Origin: Nitrospinaceae bacterium
GTDB lineage: Bacteria > Nitrospinota > Nitrospinia > Nitrospinales > Nitrospinaceae
NCBI GenBank assembly: GCA_024644405.1
Contig: JAHELC010000007.1
Location: 1 to 64,000 of the forward strand
Reading direction: 5' to 3'
Length of the DNA stretch: 64,000 bases
Within the stretch, counting starts at the first letter, position 1. The number at the start of each line of letters is the position of its first letter. This document shows, one piece after another, positions 1,687-10,810 of the stretch. Below the pieces are notes generated by a model that searched no databases, was not told where the DNA came from, and was given only the letters and a program-made list of their open reading frames with translations. The position numbers and the translations under genes were made by a program.

Positions 1687-3669
1687 ATGAATGTCGCCGA
1701 TATCAAAACATATTTCGAAAGCGGCGGAGTCCTGTCGCAAAAACTGAATTCCTTTGAGTTCCGTCCCCAACAACTGGAAATGGCGCGTGAAGTGGCCGCA
1801 TCCCTGGAGGAAGGCCATCACCTGATAGTCGAAGCCGGCACCGGGACCGGAAAAAGCCTGGCCTATCTGATCCCGGCGGTGTTGTGGGCACTGCAAAACG
1901 AAACCCGCGTCATCGTATCAACCTATACCAAAACCCTGCAGGAACAGATTGTGAATCAGGACATTCCCTTTCTACGCGATGTGCTGGGACTGCCGTTCAA
2001 ATACTCGCTGTGCATGGGCAGCGAAAACTACCTGTCCCTGCGGCGGATGAAACGGGCCAGCCAGACCCACCTGTTCGGTAACGTGGAAGAAGACGAACAA
2101 CTGAACGAAATTTTTCATTGGGCCGGTCGAACGGAATCCGGTTTCCGCAACGATCTGCCGTTCGAGCCTTCCCCGGCCGTATGGGAAGAAGTCGGGCGGC
2201 AGAAGGATTTGTGCATGGGCAAACAGTGCGAAACCTTCAATTCCTGCTTTTATTTTAAGGAAAGGCGCAAATGGTTCGGGGCGCATATCCTGATCGTCAA
2301 CCACCATCTGTTCTTTGCCAATGTGGCCAACAGTGGCGCGGTGCTGCCCCGTTACGACGCGGTCATTTTCGATGAAGCACAGAACCTGGAAGAGGCCGCC
2401 ACTTCTTTTCTGGGACTGGAAATTTCCAACTCCGGTTTGTACTATTTTCTCGACCGTCTCTACAACGCCAAAACGAAACGCGGCACGCTTGCGCGATTGC
2501 GAGAGGACTTGACCGTTGAAATCCGGCAAAAGATCAGTAAGGTGCGGATTGCCGTGGAAGGATTCTTTGAAAACCTGTTCGATGCATACGGAAGAAGGGA
2601 ACGCACCCTGCGTTTTCACAGCCCACCCACCTTGAACAATACCCTGTTCATTCCTTTACAGGATTTGCACGAAGCGTTGAAATCCCTCGAGCACCGGGTC
2701 ACTTCGGAAGAAGAACAACTGGAAGTCTCGGCTGCGGCCAATCGCGTGTTCGAATACAACAACACCATCTCCGCTTTGTTGAATCAGAACATGAAAGAGT
2801 ATGTCTACTGGCTGGAGGTCACTCCAAAAAAACGGTTCACCCGCGCCACCCTGCGGGGAATGCCCATCAACATCAATGAAGAACTGCACGAACAGGTGTT
2901 CTCCAAAATTGACCGGACCGTTCTGACCTCCGCCACTTTAACCACCAACCGCAATTTCGAACACATTAAAGAACGCCTCGGTTACACGCCGAAGGAGGAG
3001 TCCACCCTGGATTCGCCGTTCGATTACACCCGCCAGGCTCTGCTGTACCTGCCGCAGGATATGCCGGAGCCGGGAGAGGATGTCGCCAAATACGTCACGG
3101 CCCTTGCCGACCGGACGTTGGAGCTCGTCCAGGCCACGGAAGGCAAAACTTTTGTACTGTTTACCAGTTATGACATTCTCAACCGCGTGCATCGAATACT
3201 TGATCCCAAACTCCATCAATATCAGATATTAAAGCAGGGCGACCTGGCACCCAGCCGGATGATCCAGCGCTTCAAGGAAAAACCTTCGGTCATTTTTGGA
3301 ACCAGTTCGTTCTGGCAGGGAGTGGATATACCCGGGGATGCATTGTCGAGTGTGATCATTACCAAATTACCGTTCGACGTGCCCACCGAACCCCTGGTTG
3401 AAGCTCGCATCGAGGATATGAAAAAACGGTCGATCAATCCGTTCAAGCATTACCAGATACCGCGGGCGATCATTCAACTGCGGCAGGGATTCGGCCGACT
3501 GATCCGCAAACGTACGGACAAAGGAGTGGTGGCGATTCTCGATTCGCGCATGACCCAACGCAGTTACGGCAAACAGTTCTTAAGTTCGCTTCCCGAGTGC
3601 GCTCAAACCCAGAACCTGGAAGATGTAAAAAAATTTATTTCCCAACGAACCGTTGCGCCCAAAACGTGA
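1687..3669 (+). CDS. dinG: DinG/XPD-family DNA helicase
   Basis: Superfamily 2 helicase of the DinG/Rad3 type, 660 aa, predicted to unwind DNA or R-loops 5'-3' in repair. Visible motifs are Walker A EAGTGTGKS at 49-57, a DEAQ box (residues 229-232, where many relatives have DEAH), HILIVNHHLFF at ~200-210, S-A-T-L after the Fe-S/arch region, and Q-G-F-G-R-L-I-R (motif VI) near 600. The Fe-S region has C176, C181 and C187 with the spacing known in E. coli DinG (5 and 6 residues). The first ligand position in N-Y-L-C is serine here (S117), with a cysteine at 109 instead. The gene is monocistronic, converging on a TPR gene 20 bp beyond its stop. Lacks an exonuclease domain. Confidence 0.9.
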   Translation: MNVADIKTYFESGGVLSQKLNSFEFRPQQLEMAREVAASLEEGHHLIVEAGTGTGKSLAYLIPAVLWALQNETRVIVSTYTKTLQEQIVNQDIPFLRDVLGLPFKYSLCMGSENYLSLRRMKRASQTHLFGNVEEDEQLNEIFHWAGRTESGFRNDLPFEPSPAVWEEVGRQKDLCMGKQCETFNSCFYFKERRKWFGAHILIVNHHLFFANVANSGAVLPRYDAVIFDEAQNLEEAATSFLGLEISNSGLYYFLDRLYNAKTKRGTLARLREDLTVEIRQKISKVRIAVEGFFENLFDAYGRRERTLRFHSPPTLNNTLFIPLQDLHEALKSLEHRVTSEEEQLEVSAAANRVFEYNNTISALLNQNMKEYVYWLEVTPKKRFTRATLRGMPININEELHEQVFSKIDRTVLTSATLTTNRNFEHIKERLGYTPKEESTLDSPFDYTRQALLYLPQDMPEPGEDVAKYVTALADRTLELVQATEGKTFVLFTSYDILNRVHRILDPKLHQYQILKQGDLAPSRMIQRFKEKPSVIFGTSSFWQGVDIPGDALSSVIITKLPFDVPTEPLVEARIEDMKKRSINPFKHYQIPRAIIQLRQGFGRLIRKRTDKGVVAILDSRMTQRSYGKQFLSSLPECAQTQNLEDVKKFISQRTVAPKT

Positions 3670-3689: not shown

Positions 3690-4454
3690 TCATTTGAATT
3701 GAGATGAAGACATCGGCTGGATTTCCCCCTTCAGCATTTTCAGGACGGTCGGCCGGATGGCGTCATAGGTGGGAGTGATTTTGGCCTTCAGGAATCCAAA
3801 GGTTTTGTGGACCCTGCCGGGATAGTACCCGTCAAAGTGATACAGACGTTCACCTTCCTTGATATCTCCCAGTTCCTTTGAAATCTGATTGGTCTTTTCG
3901 TAACTGCCGAGGGAAACAAAAAATTCATCGCGGCCTTTGGAGTCGGTCACCACAAACCTATAAAACTGCATCCATTCGCCGGAAGGTTCGAAGAACTGGT
4001 ACGCCAGAACCAGCCGGTCGTTCACTTTGAACTGCTCTCGGCAAAATAGCGGGGTTTGTTTTAATCGCGGATCGCGAGTCTGTTCCCGGAGCCGGAACAG
4101 GGCGGCCAGAGTTTCATCTCTCATTTTGATACGCCCGAGAGCCTGGTAGGTTTGAATCAGCTTGGGAACCACCTGCCAGTCGTCGGACCTGACATTCCGG
4201 TATCGCTTCCAGTAAGTGAGCGCCTTGGCATGCTGACCCGCCGCCGCCGAAGCCAGCCCCAGGTTCCACAGAATGTTTGAGCCTTCGGGGTAACGATTCA
4301 GCGCCTTTTCAAGATAGGTGATGGAATCCGCAAACTTCCCCTGCTCGTACAGAAGAATCCCTTTTTCGAACGGGTTTTCATCCTGAGGTGCCGTCCCCGA
4401 CGCGGAAGAGGTCGCCAAAGCAAACACCAACGCCCATGCAACCAGAGGACTCAT
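3690..4454 (-). CDS. Exported TPR protein, uncharacterised
   Basis: 254-aa protein with an N-terminal signal peptide (ending ATSSASG) followed by TPR helices at about residues 30-120 (F-E-K-G-I-L-L-Y-E-Q-G-K-F; L-W-N-L-G-L-A-S-A-A-A-G-Q). The C-terminal ~130 residues have a mixed alpha/beta look and no family I recognise. The start at 4454 is preferred over the in-frame TTG at 4475 because AAAGGAAA lies 7 nt upstream. It follows the SIR2-TPR gene on the same strand after 92 bp, so the two may be co-transcribed. Probably periplasmic; function unknown. Confidence 0.75.
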   Translation of the reverse strand: MSPLVAWALVFALATSSASGTAPQDENPFEKGILLYEQGKFADSITYLEKALNRYPEGSNILWNLGLASAAAGQHAKALTYWKRYRNVRSDDWQVVPKLIQTYQALGRIKMRDETLAALFRLREQTRDPRLKQTPLFCREQFKVNDRLVLAYQFFEPSGEWMQFYRFVVTDSKGRDEFFVSLGSYEKTNQISKELGDIKEGERLYHFDGYYPGRVHKTFGFLKAKITPTYDAIRPTVLKMLKGEIQPMSSSQFK

Positions 4455-4546
4455 ACACTTTCCTTTATTGGTCAAGGCACCGCGAAGACGGCGTTCCGGT
4501 ACATTTCACAAGAAAACGAGGTTCAGGCAAATGACAGCAACAGGGT

Positions 4547-7498
4547 TTACGCATTGGCAGGCTTGCCTGCCTTGTCGGGAGATGGGGTGGGCGCGCTATC
4601 ACTGGTGGGCATGACGATTTCTTTCTTAACCTCCTCCTGCACTGCTTTCGGTGATTCAGCAACAGGCACCAGGTTTTTAAACCATTTGGATTCGCGCACC
4701 GAGGCAAACAGGGATTCCTCATTGAGGACCTCCGCTTCGGGAAGCACGTGGTGTTCCTGGCACCTTTCCAGCCATTGACGGCACCCGGTTTCGTTGGCCA
4801 GTTGCGCCTGGAGTCTCGCCATGTTGTAACACCCGGCACCGGGATGGTATTCCTCGGCTTTTTGAAGCACTCCTTTCGCTTCGGCCAGCAAAGGATGCGC
4901 ATCGATACCTCGTTTGTTTTTGGCTTGGGTGATCAACGCTTCTCCCATCATGTTGAGCGCTTCTGGATTGTTTTCCTGAATCTCGATAGACGCCTGAAAG
5001 GAATCGACCGCTTTATTGAGCAAGGGGCCTGCATTTTCCGGATCTCCCTTCTTGGCTCGTTTCAACAGGATCGAACCGAAATTACTCAAGGCGGTGGCAT
5101 CGTTGGGATGGATTTTCAGGGCCTGCGTATATTTCTTCTCAGCCTGGTTGTAAAGATCCTCTCCCGTACCGTCCGACCTGAGTGTGGCCAACCGGAAAAG
5201 TGAATTGCCCCACAACATGATCGCCCGGCTGTAATCCGGCTTGATCTTAAGAGTATCCTGATATTTCTCAATAGAAGCTTGAATCAGATTCTCTGCTTCC
5301 TTGCCTTGTTTGAAATTGGAAATTTGAAAATAGATTTCACCGACCTGGGAGAGCACTTTATAATTTTTCGGCTGCAAATTGAGCAGATCATGGAAATGAC
5401 TCACCGCCTGGGAATAGAGTGTCTCCGCATTGGAACCTTTGTGCTTGTTCCCCAACCCAAAATACACACGGCCCAGGCGATTCAGGATTTCAATGCTCTT
5501 AGGATTTCGCTGGAGTGCTTTTTTAAATTTTGCTGCCGCATCTTTGAGCAAACCGATCGCTTCGTCGCCGGATTTTTTCATCGCCATATTGTATTGCCCC
5601 ACGGCCCAACGGAAATTCACGCGCGGCATATCCGGCTTGAGGCTCAATACTTCCTGATATTTTTCGAACGCTTTGTTGAACAACCGGTCGGAAGTCGCGT
5701 CATTTTTCAATGTGGCGCGTTCCATCATAACGTCGGCCCACCCGAACTGAGCCTCTGCCAGCGTGGCATCCAGTTGCACGGCCTGCTGGAATTTTTCTTC
5801 AGCCATCATCAGAAAACGATCGGTGTCTTCCCCTTTTTTGGTTTTGGAAAGAATAAAGAGCGACTGCCCCATTTCAACCATCGCTTCCTTTTTATCCGGG
5901 TTGCCGTGCAGGGCGATTTTGAACATTTCCACCGCCTGGGTGTATAGCTGTACGGCATCGGCGCCTTTCTTGCGGCGCCCTTGAGAAAACATCACGTGGC
6001 CGGCGCCAAAAGCGGCATCGGGATGATTGGGTTGAACGCGGAGACTCTCCTGGAATTGCCGGGCGGCGGATTCGAAAAACTGATCCGATTCCGGGTCGGT
6101 TTTGTTACCGGCCAACTCTGTCAGCACCATCCCCAAATCGTAATTGGCTTCATATAAATCAGGATTCAATTCGAGGGCCTTCTCGAACTGCTGTGCGGCC
6201 TGCTCGAGCAGATCGGTCGAGTCTTCATCGGATAGAATTTTGGCCTGCTCGACCAGCAACCGTCCCAGTTTGAAATAAGTGTGAGGAGCATCCGGCCTGA
6301 TCTGAAGAGCCATTTCATAATGAGGCTGGGCCGCCTTGAGTTTTTCCAGGGCTTTGGGGCCGAACAGTTTATTGGCTTCCTCAACTGCGGCATCCCCTTC
6401 CACCTGGTAGGCCCAGTTCAATAGATGACCCAACTGAACCGATGGAGTTTCTTCAAATTGCCGGTGCTGCTCGATCACTTTTTTCGGATTCCCCGCCATC
6501 AAACCGGTACGCGCCGCCTGGATGGCTTTCAACAAATCCGGATCATCCACCCCGCCGGCCGCTTCTTCATCGTCTCCGATATCCCCGCCCCGCTCCGGAT
6601 CTTCATATTGCTGGATTGCCGCTTTGGTCTGCTTGAGGGAAATGTCCGCTATGTTCAACCCGTCCTTTTGACCGGGTGCAGGGTAGGCGCCCACTTTATT
6701 CAACCACTGGCCCAAAAATGTAAACGGGTAACCGATGAGCTCGGGGATGCCGATCTTCATCATGCGAATCAGAGAAACCAGAAAGGTGTCCGGGTCTTCG
6801 GAAAAAGTGTAATGATTGTTTGGCTTGGAAAAAATCTGATCCTGAAGAAATCGTGCCGGCGGCTGGGTTCCCGAAAATACCCAGAGCAATCCTTTCGAGA
6901 TGTTATCGAGCCAGGCGATCTGCTCGTAAACCGGATCTTTGGGATCGGGATTGTACCCCAGAACCAGCCAGGGACCGCTGCGTCCCACCCCGGAAAATAT
7001 GCCCTCCAGAGAATCGGGCGTCGCACCCAGAACCTGGCCCTTCAAATGAATGATCGACTTGTGGGGTACCATATCTGGTTTGGTAATGGCCCCCACGGTA
7101 CAGTCGTAAACGGTCGGGAACTCTCCCACCAGAGTACAGGCCCTCTCCAACAGGGGGTCGGGGCAGGTGGTGTACACCCGGCTCAAGAATCCCTCTTTCA
7201 ACAACAGGGCGATGCATAAATGCGCCCAGCTGACTTTCGATTTGCGCAGATAAAAATTGAATATTTCAAATTTCTGGGTCGCCGTCAATTCCGCCGCGCA
7301 GTGCCGGAGATCTTTGGTCCGGGCGTGTTCGTAGGCCTGGGGATAACTTTTCTTGATCGCCGCCACCCACTCGGTTGCCGAAGGAATCCCGGAACGCAGG
7401 GTGCACTCGTAGCCCATCAACAGGATGGCCCCGTTTTTCTCCATCTTGGATTCAAACAGGCGGTCGACGAATTTGTTTATGGAACCGGAAGGTTGCAT
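4547..7498 (-). CDS. Large SIR2-like/TPR-repeat protein with degenerate SIR2 active site
   Basis: 983-aa cytosolic protein. Residues ~8-270 align by pattern to SIR2_2-type Rossmann NADase domains: L-L-M-G-Y-E-C-T-L-R-S-G-I-P-S-A (~27-42) sits where GAGxS..SGIP is expected, T-T-C-P-D-P-L-L-E (110-118) where TTNYDxLLE is expected, and I-H-L-K-G (150-154) where IHLHG is expected. The usual catalytic Asn and His are therefore Cys112 and Lys153. Residues ~380-940 are at least twelve TPR units with long inserts (repeated A-x-x-x-F-x-x-A-L-x-x-x-P). There is a Pro/Ala-rich tail. The ATG at 7498 is used in preference to an in-frame TTG at 7510; neither has a strong ribosome site. It may be a sensor or scaffold related to SIR2-TPR conflict proteins. 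Enzymatic activity looks doubtful. Confidence 0.75.
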   Translation of the reverse strand: MQPSGSINKFVDRLFESKMEKNGAILLMGYECTLRSGIPSATEWVAAIKKSYPQAYEHARTKDLRHCAAELTATQKFEIFNFYLRKSKVSWAHLCIALLLKEGFLSRVYTTCPDPLLERACTLVGEFPTVYDCTVGAITKPDMVPHKSIIHLKGQVLGATPDSLEGIFSGVGRSGPWLVLGYNPDPKDPVYEQIAWLDNISKGLLWVFSGTQPPARFLQDQIFSKPNNHYTFSEDPDTFLVSLIRMMKIGIPELIGYPFTFLGQWLNKVGAYPAPGQKDGLNIADISLKQTKAAIQQYEDPERGGDIGDDEEAAGGVDDPDLLKAIQAARTGLMAGNPKKVIEQHRQFEETPSVQLGHLLNWAYQVEGDAAVEEANKLFGPKALEKLKAAQPHYEMALQIRPDAPHTYFKLGRLLVEQAKILSDEDSTDLLEQAAQQFEKALELNPDLYEANYDLGMVLTELAGNKTDPESDQFFESAARQFQESLRVQPNHPDAAFGAGHVMFSQGRRKKGADAVQLYTQAVEMFKIALHGNPDKKEAMVEMGQSLFILSKTKKGEDTDRFLMMAEEKFQQAVQLDATLAEAQFGWADVMMERATLKNDATSDRLFNKAFEKYQEVLSLKPDMPRVNFRWAVGQYNMAMKKSGDEAIGLLKDAAAKFKKALQRNPKSIEILNRLGRVYFGLGNKHKGSNAETLYSQAVSHFHDLLNLQPKNYKVLSQVGEIYFQISNFKQGKEAENLIQASIEKYQDTLKIKPDYSRAIMLWGNSLFRLATLRSDGTGEDLYNQAEKKYTQALKIHPNDATALSNFGSILLKRAKKGDPENAGPLLNKAVDSFQASIEIQENNPEALNMMGEALITQAKNKRGIDAHPLLAEAKGVLQKAEEYHPGAGCYNMARLQAQLANETGCRQWLERCQEHHVLPEAEVLNEESLFASVRESKWFKNLVPVAESPKAVQEEVKKEIVMPTSDSAPTPSPDKAGKPANA

Positions 7499-8139
7499 GT
7501 AACTCAACAAAGATTGAAAAGGTTAATCTGCTTGTCCTGAAACTCTTCAGGAAGTTGTGCGTTTTTTTGACGATCGGTCCCGGATTGGCGCACAGCATAC
7601 CCATCCAAAATCCGAAGGGCGCATTCCAGCCATTCCCCCGTTCGGTGTTCGCAGGGAAAATCCGCCTGTTCATGCACTGTCAAAAAGCCCCTTACCGGGA
7701 TTATTTACAATAACTTAGAATATTATTATGATAACAGGAAGGGGATGAATATCAAGCGGATATATAACCCTGGAGGGAAAGTAAACCCTTGGTAACATGG
7801 AGAAAAAAGGACCCGGAGACGGTTGATCCATAAAAGGCCCATGAATTCAGACACTCTGCCTATCTGGTCTCGAAGACCCTGCCCATGGCCCTGCTGAAAG
7901 CAGGAATTATCCCCGCTCCGATAGCCGATTTTTCAGGGGAATCCGGGGCTCCGGAAAAGATATCCCCGATTCCCTGTAACCGATCAGCTAAAAACTCATC
8001 AAAACTCTAGTGAGGAGCTGCAGGGCCGCACAGGGGGTTGCCTCTGGCCCGGGGGTCAGGGTAACAGGGGTGGCGTGCTCTGAGGTTTCAAGTATAATTG
8101 AAAATAACCATCCAGGCTCGGAGGGCCAACAGAATTGCC
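7499..8139. other. Long intergenic region, no gene recognised
   Basis: 640 bp between divergent genes. It contains an AT-rich core around 7705-7740 and several GC-rich imperfect hairpins (for example CCTGCT-gaa-AGCAGG near 7890), but no tRNA, RNase P, SRP or tmRNA signature and no ORF with a ribosome site. A TATAAT at 8093-8098 lies ~40 bp before the next gene but has no good -35 at 16-18 bp. Confidence 0.55.
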
Positions 8140-8570: not shown

Positions 8571-10244
8571 ATGGGATACGTGTTTCTCTGGCTGGAAGCG
8601 ATGGCCTCGGCGTTGCTGATGGTGGCGGTGGTGTTTGCCTTTTCCGGACGGCTCAAAAAATGGCCGGCCCTGTGGCCCATCCTCATGTCCTTGCTACTCA
8701 CCCTGCCAGCATTGGCTGCAACGGTTTTCGCAGGATATTTGTTTTTCGAGAACATCCATCCGCAATGGCTGTTCCCCTACATGTTCTCCTGGACTCTGCT
8801 TTATGTCACCGGGAGTTGGATACTGATTCGCTGGGGCCGCCGAATTTTCGGCGCTACCCCGGTGGCGTCCACCTGGCACCGCCTCCGGTTGTCAGGATTC
8901 CTGGTTATTGCTCTGGCCCTGCAATGGAGCACGATGACCACTCTCGACAACACCGCCAAACTGGAAGCGGTGGCCATCCAAACAATGGCCTTAACCAAAG
9001 CCCGAACCGTACTCCCATCTTCCCCTCCTTACGATCAAAACGCTGCAGAATTTTATGACCAAGCCGCCATAATGTCGAAACAAAACCAGGGTATGGAAGA
9101 AGACCAGGGAAAAGTTTTAGAAAACAGTACCAACCCGGCTTTTGATATTAATTCCGAACCAGCACAAAAGTTGTTAAGGGAAAATATAGAAAACATTGAT
9201 TTAATCAAAAATGCGGCCCAAAAGCCCTATCTCTACCATCCTTATACTATAGATAACGAATCCATCGAATTTCCAAGTATCTATTTATTTAGAGAAGCAA
9301 CCCAACTACTGGCGCTGAAAGCCCGCACCCATTCGCGAAATGGCCATACAGTTGATGCATTGGAAAATATATTCATAATTGACAGGATTGCACAACAAGT
9401 TTACCAAACCCCCCTCTTAGCTAATGTCTTGGTAGCAGGATCAATCCAAAATCGATCAAAAAGCGTATTGGAAATTATTCTGTCCGAAAAACCGGCCCAC
9501 GTGAAAATCAAAATCCCATTACCGGTAAAAATCCACGATCATATTTTACAAGTTTTTAAAGACAGCATGGTGTTTGAGGAAGCTTTTATAACTTTTGGTT
9601 GGGCTAAAACGGTCATTGAGGACGAACCTTTGGAGTTATTAGATTTAGAATCAGTAGATCTCTTTGGCCCTGAGGATAGCCTGCGAACTAGAATGTCCGG
9701 TTACCTGTATCGAGCATTCTTATTCCAAGATGATCAAGTTGCGGAAAAAGCCTCTTGGGAAAAAATTCATGAATCCATCCAGAACACTTATTATGACTCT
9801 GGCATGGAATTAAAAGAATGGGAAGAAAACAAAAACGATCATATTGAGGTCGGTTTTTATACGTCTCGCCCCACTTTTACCGTTTCCAGTTACTTTGAAC
9901 GGGTAACACAACAGCAAACACAATTCCTGTTAGGCAGACTGGGATTGGCGGCGGCGTCCTACCACTCCGACCATGGCAAATATCCGGCGACACTGGACGC
10001 GCTGGTGCCGAAATATATCACGGAAATTCCGATAGACCCGTTCAACGGCGAACCGATTAAAATGATCGCGGTGAAGGGTGGGTTGATCCTGTACAGTGTC
10101 GCACAGGATCTGAAAGACGACCACGGTGTAGCTTTTGACAGGGAGACAGATGAAGGCGACCTCGCTTTCTACCTCGGCTCCGCCTTTAAAAAGTACCGTT
10201 TGCAACCGGCTATCGAGGAAAGCACCAAGAGAGATTCAAAATGA
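8571..10244 (+). CDS. Membrane-anchored hypothetical protein with pseudopilin-like C-terminal segment
   Basis: 557 aa; ACGGAG lies 8 nt before the ATG. Four hydrophobic segments occupy residues ~1-135 (L-L-M-V-A-V-V-F-A-F; L-L-L-T-L-P-A-L-A-A-T; F-P-Y-M-F-S-W-T-L-L; F-L-V-I-A-L-A-L-Q), followed by a long soluble region. Near residues 455-530 the sequence R-L-G-L-A-A-A-S-Y-H-S-D-H-G-K-Y-P-A-T-L and D-P-F-N-G-E-P-I resembles the globular part of type II secretion/pseudopilin-like proteins. I do not recognise the whole protein. The middle of the gene (about 9030-9900) is clearly AT-richer than both ends, so it may be mosaic. Its stop overlaps the start of the ankyrin gene. Confidence 0.7.
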   Translation: MGYVFLWLEAMASALLMVAVVFAFSGRLKKWPALWPILMSLLLTLPALAATVFAGYLFFENIHPQWLFPYMFSWTLLYVTGSWILIRWGRRIFGATPVASTWHRLRLSGFLVIALALQWSTMTTLDNTAKLEAVAIQTMALTKARTVLPSSPPYDQNAAEFYDQAAIMSKQNQGMEEDQGKVLENSTNPAFDINSEPAQKLLRENIENIDLIKNAAQKPYLYHPYTIDNESIEFPSIYLFREATQLLALKARTHSRNGHTVDALENIFIIDRIAQQVYQTPLLANVLVAGSIQNRSKSVLEIILSEKPAHVKIKIPLPVKIHDHILQVFKDSMVFEEAFITFGWAKTVIEDEPLELLDLESVDLFGPEDSLRTRMSGYLYRAFLFQDDQVAEKASWEKIHESIQNTYYDSGMELKEWEENKNDHIEVGFYTSRPTFTVSSYFERVTQQQTQFLLGRLGLAAASYHSDHGKYPATLDALVPKYITEIPIDPFNGEPIKMIAVKGGLILYSVAQDLKDDHGVAFDRETDEGDLAFYLGSAFKKYRLQPAIEESTKRDSK

Positions 10245-10810
10245 TGATAAGAACCATCAAATGTTTTCTTAAAGATTTTATGGTTATCGGTGTTTTCGGC
10301 CTGGCATTCCTGGTTCATGTACCCAATGCCTGGGCCGGCCCGCTCCATGAGGCGGCGCGAACCGGGAACCTCCAGAAAGTCGAGCAACTCATCTCACAGG
10401 GCGCCGACGTCAACTCCAGAAACCCGTTTGGAGAAACGCCTCTTTTTCTGGCCGTCCTCAAGAACCATTACGAGATTGTCCAATTACTGATTGAAAAGGG
10501 AGCCGACATCAATGTTAAAGATCAAAGAGGAGGTACACCCCTTTTCCTGGCGGCCTTTGGAGGCTACAACGAGATGGCTCAACTGCTGATCGAAAACAAC
10601 TCCGACGTCAACGCCAAAAACCAGAGCAAACAAACGCCGCTTTTCCTTGCGGCTATCAAAGGCCATTATGAAATCGTTCAATTGCTGATCGAACAGGGTG
10701 CAAACGTGAATGCCAGGGACTTATGGGGAAAAACGCCGCTGGACCGGGCCATCGAGTTTGAAAACAAAACAGTGGCCGACCTCCTTAGAAAACACGGCGC
10801 CAAAGAATAG
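10241..10810 (+). CDS. Exported ankyrin-repeat protein
   Basis: 189 aa; an N-terminal signal peptide (hydrophobic V-I-G-V-F-G-L-A-F-L, cleavage near NAWA-GP) is followed by four ankyrin repeats covering residues ~28-185. Each carries the signatures G-x-T-P-L-x-x-A and x-V-x-x-L-L-x-x-G-A-D-V-N. The ATG overlaps the preceding stop (ATGATGA context), so the two genes are translationally coupled and probably act together in the envelope. Two adjacent ATG codons (10241, 10244) are possible starts. Binds a protein partner by analogy with other ankyrin proteins; the partner is unknown. Confidence 0.85.
   Translation: MMIRTIKCFLKDFMVIGVFGLAFLVHVPNAWAGPLHEAARTGNLQKVEQLISQGADVNSRNPFGETPLFLAVLKNHYEIVQLLIEKGADINVKDQRGGTPLFLAAFGGYNEMAQLLIENNSDVNAKNQSKQTPLFLAAIKGHYEIVQLLIEQGANVNARDLWGKTPLDRAIEFENKTVADLLRKHGAKE

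Follow-up and report, generated by a model that had tools for sequence, protein, structure and literature searches.

The gene at positions 4547 to 7498 of the window (the whole 64,000-nucleotide stretch of Nitrospinaceae DNA analysed here) encodes a protein that, with a probability of about two in three, is a domesticated pseudo-NADase turned TPR scaffold. The ancestral SIR2-TPR protein was probably an NAD-cleaving effector. Its nucleotide loop and catalytic His were lost in the ancestor of the window's family (f1) and its catalytic Asn in the ancestor of the window's genus (g1). Selection has retained the folded SIR2 domain, which would serve as a structural head and probably mediate oligomerisation. 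Attached to this head is a superhelix of 12 TPR units that would bind partner proteins. The scaffold role is suggested by conservation together with loss of chemistry: because the active-site residues were lost and evolution nevertheless preserves the protein, a binding scaffold is more probable than an enzyme. An inactivated relative of defence NADases has been kept under strong selection across a family and, since intact and half-lost relatives occupy the same locus, a selected role of SIR2 without NAD chemistry can be tested by comparing orthologues. Through this locus, SIR2-TPR proteins are also connected with lipid head-group enzymes encoded in a chromosomal operon. In the open-licence literature, no report was found on SIR2-TPR proteins, on SIR2 proteins of Nitrospinota or, among the papers listed, on a pseudo-NADase of this kind. 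The following features were assigned to the gene.

4547 to 7498, minus strand: SIR2(pseudo)-TPR protein, 983 residues, ATG at 7498; a TTG in the same frame lies at 7510, 12 bases further upstream
6749 to 7498, minus strand: SIR2-fold domain, residues 1-250 (model pLDDT 74, pTM 0.75; fold matches with Z 22 to 16, spanning model residues 1-265)
7400 to 7414, minus strand: residues 29-33, nucleotide loop degenerated to G-Y-E-C-T (intact relatives have the GAGCS type)
7163 to 7165, minus strand: Cys112 (YTTCPDP) at the catalytic Asn position (alignment with intact relatives)
7040 to 7042, minus strand: Lys153 (IIHLKG) at the catalytic His position of the HG motif (alignment with intact relatives)
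4784 to 6346, minus strand: 12 TPR units with a period of 44 residues, about residues 385-905 (PF13414, E 3.7e-35, and motif pattern)

The minus strand of 4547-7498 forms one open frame, and the plus strand is interrupted by several stops. An alignment of 34 sequences yielded a structural model of residues 1-299 (pLDDT 73.9, pTM 0.75); an earlier model from four close sequences had reached a pLDDT of 37.5, and the addition of 30 viral-contig relatives made it usable. The model shows a SIR2 Rossmann-type fold with a small subdomain. In the fold search, all 50 matches listed were SIR2-fold entries, with Z 16-22 for SIR2 chains; the top match among those listed was SPARSA (Z 22.0), and DSR2 (Z 17.8) and KomC (Z 17.5) were also found. 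The N-terminal domain is therefore, as modelled, a SIR2 fold, with SPARSA, DSR2 and ThsA as its nearest solved structures. Since the input alignment contained intact SIR2 relatives, the model is not independent of SIR2 homology. In PADLOC the SIR2 portions of Argonaute-associated proteins were matched weakly (E 1.3e-5 at best, domain alone), the viral structure library gave weak sirtuin matches and nothing better, and a PDB search with the single window sequence gave no real match. With a profile of intact orthologues, SPARSA was the nearest solved SIR2 domain (E 2.5e-13).

The original prediction of a SIR2-like domain is thus borne out. Its statement that the SIR2_2 frame is clear holds only through relatives and fold, because the Pfam scan of the window protein matched TPR families alone and PF13289 (SIR2_2) matched neither this protein nor anything else in its own genome. 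Among five orthologues scanned from families f2 and f4 of the same order, L047, L041 and L048 lay above the SIR2_2 cut-off, L044 equalled it and L050 fell just under it.

At least twelve TPR units had been predicted, and 12 were found. The motif pattern matched the protein 13 times, 11 of these falling exactly into the 44-residue period (394 to 878). The two off-step matches (919 and 940) were left out of the count, and a unit at 570, one letter short of the pattern, was added by eye, giving the 12. Tandem units above the Pfam cut-offs lie in the C-terminal part, and TPR families are its sole matches.

The loop stretch of the protein reads ILLMGYECTLRSGIP (MGYECT), in agreement with the predicted degenerate loop, and Cys112 and Lys153 do stand at the predicted catalytic positions: in the 34-row alignment, all 30 viral-contig rows carry Asn at 112 and His at 153, and the only exceptions are the window protein and its three nearest relatives. 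On sequence, the GAGxS loop, the Asn of TTNxD and the His (or Asn) of HG/NG that characterise a catalytic SIR2 NADase are all missing. Loss of the His is by itself no proof of inactivity, because PaAvs5 with Asn in its HG/NG motif is reported to be active, even better than with His (PMC12931631); the losses of Asn and loop make the stronger case for inactivity. From these substitutions, the window protein probably neither hydrolyses nor binds NAD.

The substitutions are common to a clade. Proteins of f2 and f4 keep the GAG-type loop and the His, and all but one keep the Asn; throughout f1 the loop and His are gone, and g1 lacks the Asn as well. The four genomes of genera g2 and g3 have lost the GAG loop and the His and kept Asn112, with Asn (3/4) or Lys (1/4) at position 153. 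In the tree, f1 forms a clade (support 100/100) nested among intact proteins, and g1 is likewise a clade (100/100). Asn112 was lost twice, on the g1 stem and separately in G042 (f2), and within f1 there were three exchanges of Lys and Asn at position 153. The G042 protein (L048:7358-10339) reads TTSYD with HLHG kept, a separate loss in another family than the window's.

In an intact f2/f4 set of nine rows, excluding G042, G038 and G083, 73 columns were invariant or nearly invariant. Changes in g1 relative to this set include G31 to Glu (8/8), N112 to Cys (7) or Ser (1), N90 and G184. H153 is replaced by Lys in the window, G001, G005 and G007 and by Asn in G002, G003, G004 and G006. Tyr30 is unique to the window genome, the other 7 of the 8 g1 members having G-[ED]-E-C-S. 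Retained in g1 are G29, C32, G37, P39, T110, D114, D132, G154, Q155, G181 and D188. Since Asp114, Asp132, Gly181 and Asp188 are invariant in g1 and Tyr182 is almost invariant, a ligand pocket of some kind may persist.

Of the order's 64 genomes, 22 contain an orthologue of similar length (f1 12/12, f4 4/5, f2 6/46, f3 0/1), in some cases split or interrupted. Substitution rates were computed for 17 reading frames, with G042 assigned to no group; G004, G005, G009, G025 and G031 (fragmentary or interrupted) were excluded, and for G007 the frame was taken to begin at the Met that follows its stop. Among six g1 genomes, the SIR2 domain gave pairwise dN/dS values of 0.05-0.21 (15 pairs, dS being high in several of them). 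The ratio dN(SIR2)/dN(TPR), for which within-group pairs are not independent, was 1.05 in g1 (95% bootstrap 0.96-1.13), 0.84 in intact f4 (0.73-0.94), 1.50 in intact f2 (1.28-1.75) and 3.54 in g2 (3.03-4.22). By these values, the half-lost domain of g2 evolves fast, whereas the apparently dead domain of g1 is constrained like its TPRs. At the g2 loci (L037, L039, L040), Asn112 is kept while the SIR2 domain runs about 3.5 times faster than its own TPR array. Full-length open frames are present in 5/8 g1 genomes, and the G004 copy is merely split over two contigs. Two of the eight copies, both in draft bins, are not clean: about 21 codons into the G007 copy there is an in-frame TAA, directly followed by a Met, and the frame of G005 is broken. 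Judged from reading frames and substitution rates, the window gene is no ordinary pseudogene.

The gene stands at a fixed chromosomal locus, compared here over 21 regions. The neighbouring features in the window are as follows.

1687 to 3669, plus strand: dinG-like helicase gene, a conserved syntenic neighbour (comparison of regions)
3690 to 4475, minus strand: downstream TPR gene whose N-terminus looks signal-like by eye, 71 bases from the SIR2-TPR gene
7638 to 8117, no strand given: upstream stretch, pieces of which show about 70-88% similarity to what precedes the CDP-alcohol transferase gene in G007 and G003; the transferase itself is absent

In 13 of the 21 regions a CDP-alcohol phosphatidyltransferase gene, often a pair of them, stands immediately ahead of the SIR2-TPR gene (the G003 copy matches PF01066 at 47.5 bits), and in three further regions (G020, G031, G042) the SIR2-TPR gene follows TonB; neither lies ahead of it in the window, G001, G002, G004 and G025. 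The dinG gene adjoins it in 9/21 regions, and the downstream TPR gene lies beside it in the window, G003 and G006 only. The upstream transferase gene was lost in the window, G001, G002 and G004. The draft genome that includes the window is 95.8% complete; no two-domain transferase was found anywhere in it, and only generic matches to the C-terminal half were obtained. That the window retains a remnant of the transferase upstream of the gene was rejected, the best tblastn E values (0.08-0.14) being at chance level. An obligate pairing of SIR2-TPR with the transferase was also rejected, as the transferase occurs in genomes without SIR2-TPR. The transferase region was read in 16 such genomes, and in 7 of them the transferase abuts dinG and the gene is missing from between the two; in one of these (G057, of another family than the window's) a 46-codon SIR2 relic with a stop lies there. 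The gene is thus an old resident of the locus that was lost several times in f2. No Argonaute gene was present among the neighbouring genes read and no defence island was seen at the locus, the neighbours being of housekeeping type.

Further observations were made around the locus. At L047, L050, L049 and L041 (f2/f4), TonB is followed by one or two CDP-alcohol phosphatidyltransferases and a SIR2-TPR gene with intact motifs; by eye, the N-terminal domain of these transferases resembles a degenerate nucleotidyltransferase, and genes beside the SIR2-TPR gene in L047, L048 and L050 resemble Dop/PafA and proteasome genes. Positions 8571-10244 of the window encode a membrane-like protein (by eye) of 557 residues with no Pfam match, next to an ankyrin-like gene (by eye) at 10241-10810. 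In the one-contig genome G031, the SIR2 and TPR halves (L046, L086) lie about 140 kb apart, each keeping one usual neighbour (TonB and dinG, respectively), through rearrangement or a scaffolding error.

Relatives outside the order were found on viral contigs. The SIR2 domains of five proteins in IMG/VR contigs (L063-L067) are 43-46% identical to that of the intact f2 protein L047; a wider profile yielded 42 loci, five of them in the same contigs. The L063-L067 proteins, of about 670 residues with intact motifs, are cargo in related prophage-like contigs and are candidate phage-borne SIR2 effectors. In two Vibrio phage records (L099, L100), a SIR2 gene and an integrase gene lie close together. 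Compared with the window protein, the IMG/VR proteins (e.g. L064) and the Vibrio phage proteins keep all catalytic motifs, are mobile cargo and have shorter C-termini; the TPR signal is weak in L064 and nil in L099/L100, against 12 units in the window protein. Sequence kinship of this sort supports a relation to conflict effectors, with transfer possible in either direction. The gene of G025 lies off the common locus, near the proteins L063-L066 in the tree with support that is not full, and is possibly a separate transfer. The predicted descent from a conflict-system effector is plausible through the intact relatives in phage and prophage contigs; in this order, however, the gene occupies a fixed chromosomal locus and not a defence island.

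The original prediction offered a scaffold or a sensor of NAD or its derivatives, and the scaffold is the better of the two. A sensor would bind NAD, ADP-ribose or a cyclic derivative in the altered pocket without cleavage and relay the signal via the TPRs, and the pocket-side Gly154, Gly181, Tyr182 and Asp188 are invariant or nearly so in g1. Against this, the phosphate loop has changed from GAG to G-x-E with an acidic E31 in 8/8 g1 members, the Asn is lost and position 153 has switched between K and N three times. NAD sensing is further disfavoured because the N112A variant of ThsA is reported to lose both cleavage and NAD binding, with fold and oligomeric state like wild type (PMC7272460), and a sensor is accordingly quite unlikely. 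An active enzyme with altered chemistry via Cys112 and Lys153 seems very improbable. The activity of the NG variant of PaAvs5 (PMC12931631) makes His loss indecisive and Cys112 is present in 7/8 g1 members, but the eighth has Ser, near relatives differ at position 153 (K or N), the loop is lost and no new dyad is conserved.

A regulatory or decoy subunit in immunity, co-assembling with a SIR2 or other NAD enzyme or capturing phage triggers or inhibitors of SIR2 effectors, is unlikely. It would suit the intact relatives, which are phage and prophage cargo, and the FAM118 paralogues, reported to be highly active only as a pair (PMC12700824). The window's own draft genome, however, holds no other SIR2_2 protein and a single canonical sirtuin, and the gene, outside any defence island seen, is present in 12/12 genomes of its family, unlike patchy defence genes. 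Decay under relaxed selection is least credible: the copies of G005 and G007 are interrupted, the upstream transferase was lost in four genomes and G057 holds a SIR2 relic, but the low dN/dS and the open frames described above speak against it. Beside the preferred scaffold reading, a wider proposal is unlikely. In it, the order would show successive natural stages: an intact SIR2-TPR NADase encoded in an operon, an intermediate without loop and HG that keeps the Asn, and a fully dead form that is fixed in a genus and maintained by selection. The dead form might be a decoy or brake blocking the sites where phage triggers or anti-SIR2 proteins bind, or a scaffold recruited out of immunity for work in the cell envelope (operon with TonB and CDP-alcohol transferase).

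Several known systems resemble the window protein in part. DSR2 (defence-associated sirtuin 2) likewise carries an N-terminal SIR2 domain on a protein of about 1000 residues; it is an active NADase, whereas the window protein lacks the catalytic residues. The C-terminal repeats of DSR2 are not known to be TPRs of the kind in the window protein. The PADLOC matches included no DSR-named model, of which the library may hold none, and the SIR2 domain alone was modelled. SPARSA, a short prokaryotic Argonaute NADase whose Sir2-APAZ protein has the nearest solved SIR2 domain, possesses Asn142/His186, an APAZ domain and an Argonaute partner, whereas the window protein has neither catalytic residues nor APAZ; N142A and H186A are reported to kill its NADase (PMC10781750). 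In ThsA (Thoeris), Asn112/His152 have nearly the same numbers as Cys112/Lys153. ThsA is active, with a SLOG sensor domain where the window protein has TPRs (PMC7272460); the C-terminal SLOG/STALD domain typical of ThsA is replaced here by TPRs alone. PaAvs5 (AVAST type 5) shares the combination of SIR2 domain and C-terminal TPR-type repeats, with NG replacing HG (PMC12931631). It is active, keeps Asn110 and has a central STAND NTPase, for which the window protein gave no Pfam match; its N110A and D112A variants are described as abrogating immunity (PMC12931631). Proteins of the SAMD9 family, in animals and actinobacteria, unite TPR repeats and a variant Sir2-like domain within a single chain, much as the window protein does (PMC5445408), and have additional AlbA, STAND NTPase and OB domains. 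Most eukaryotic TIR domains are reported as possibly inactive scaffolds (PMC12700824). Eukaryotic TIR domains and SAMD9 are precedents in kind for inactive descendants of immune NAD domains.
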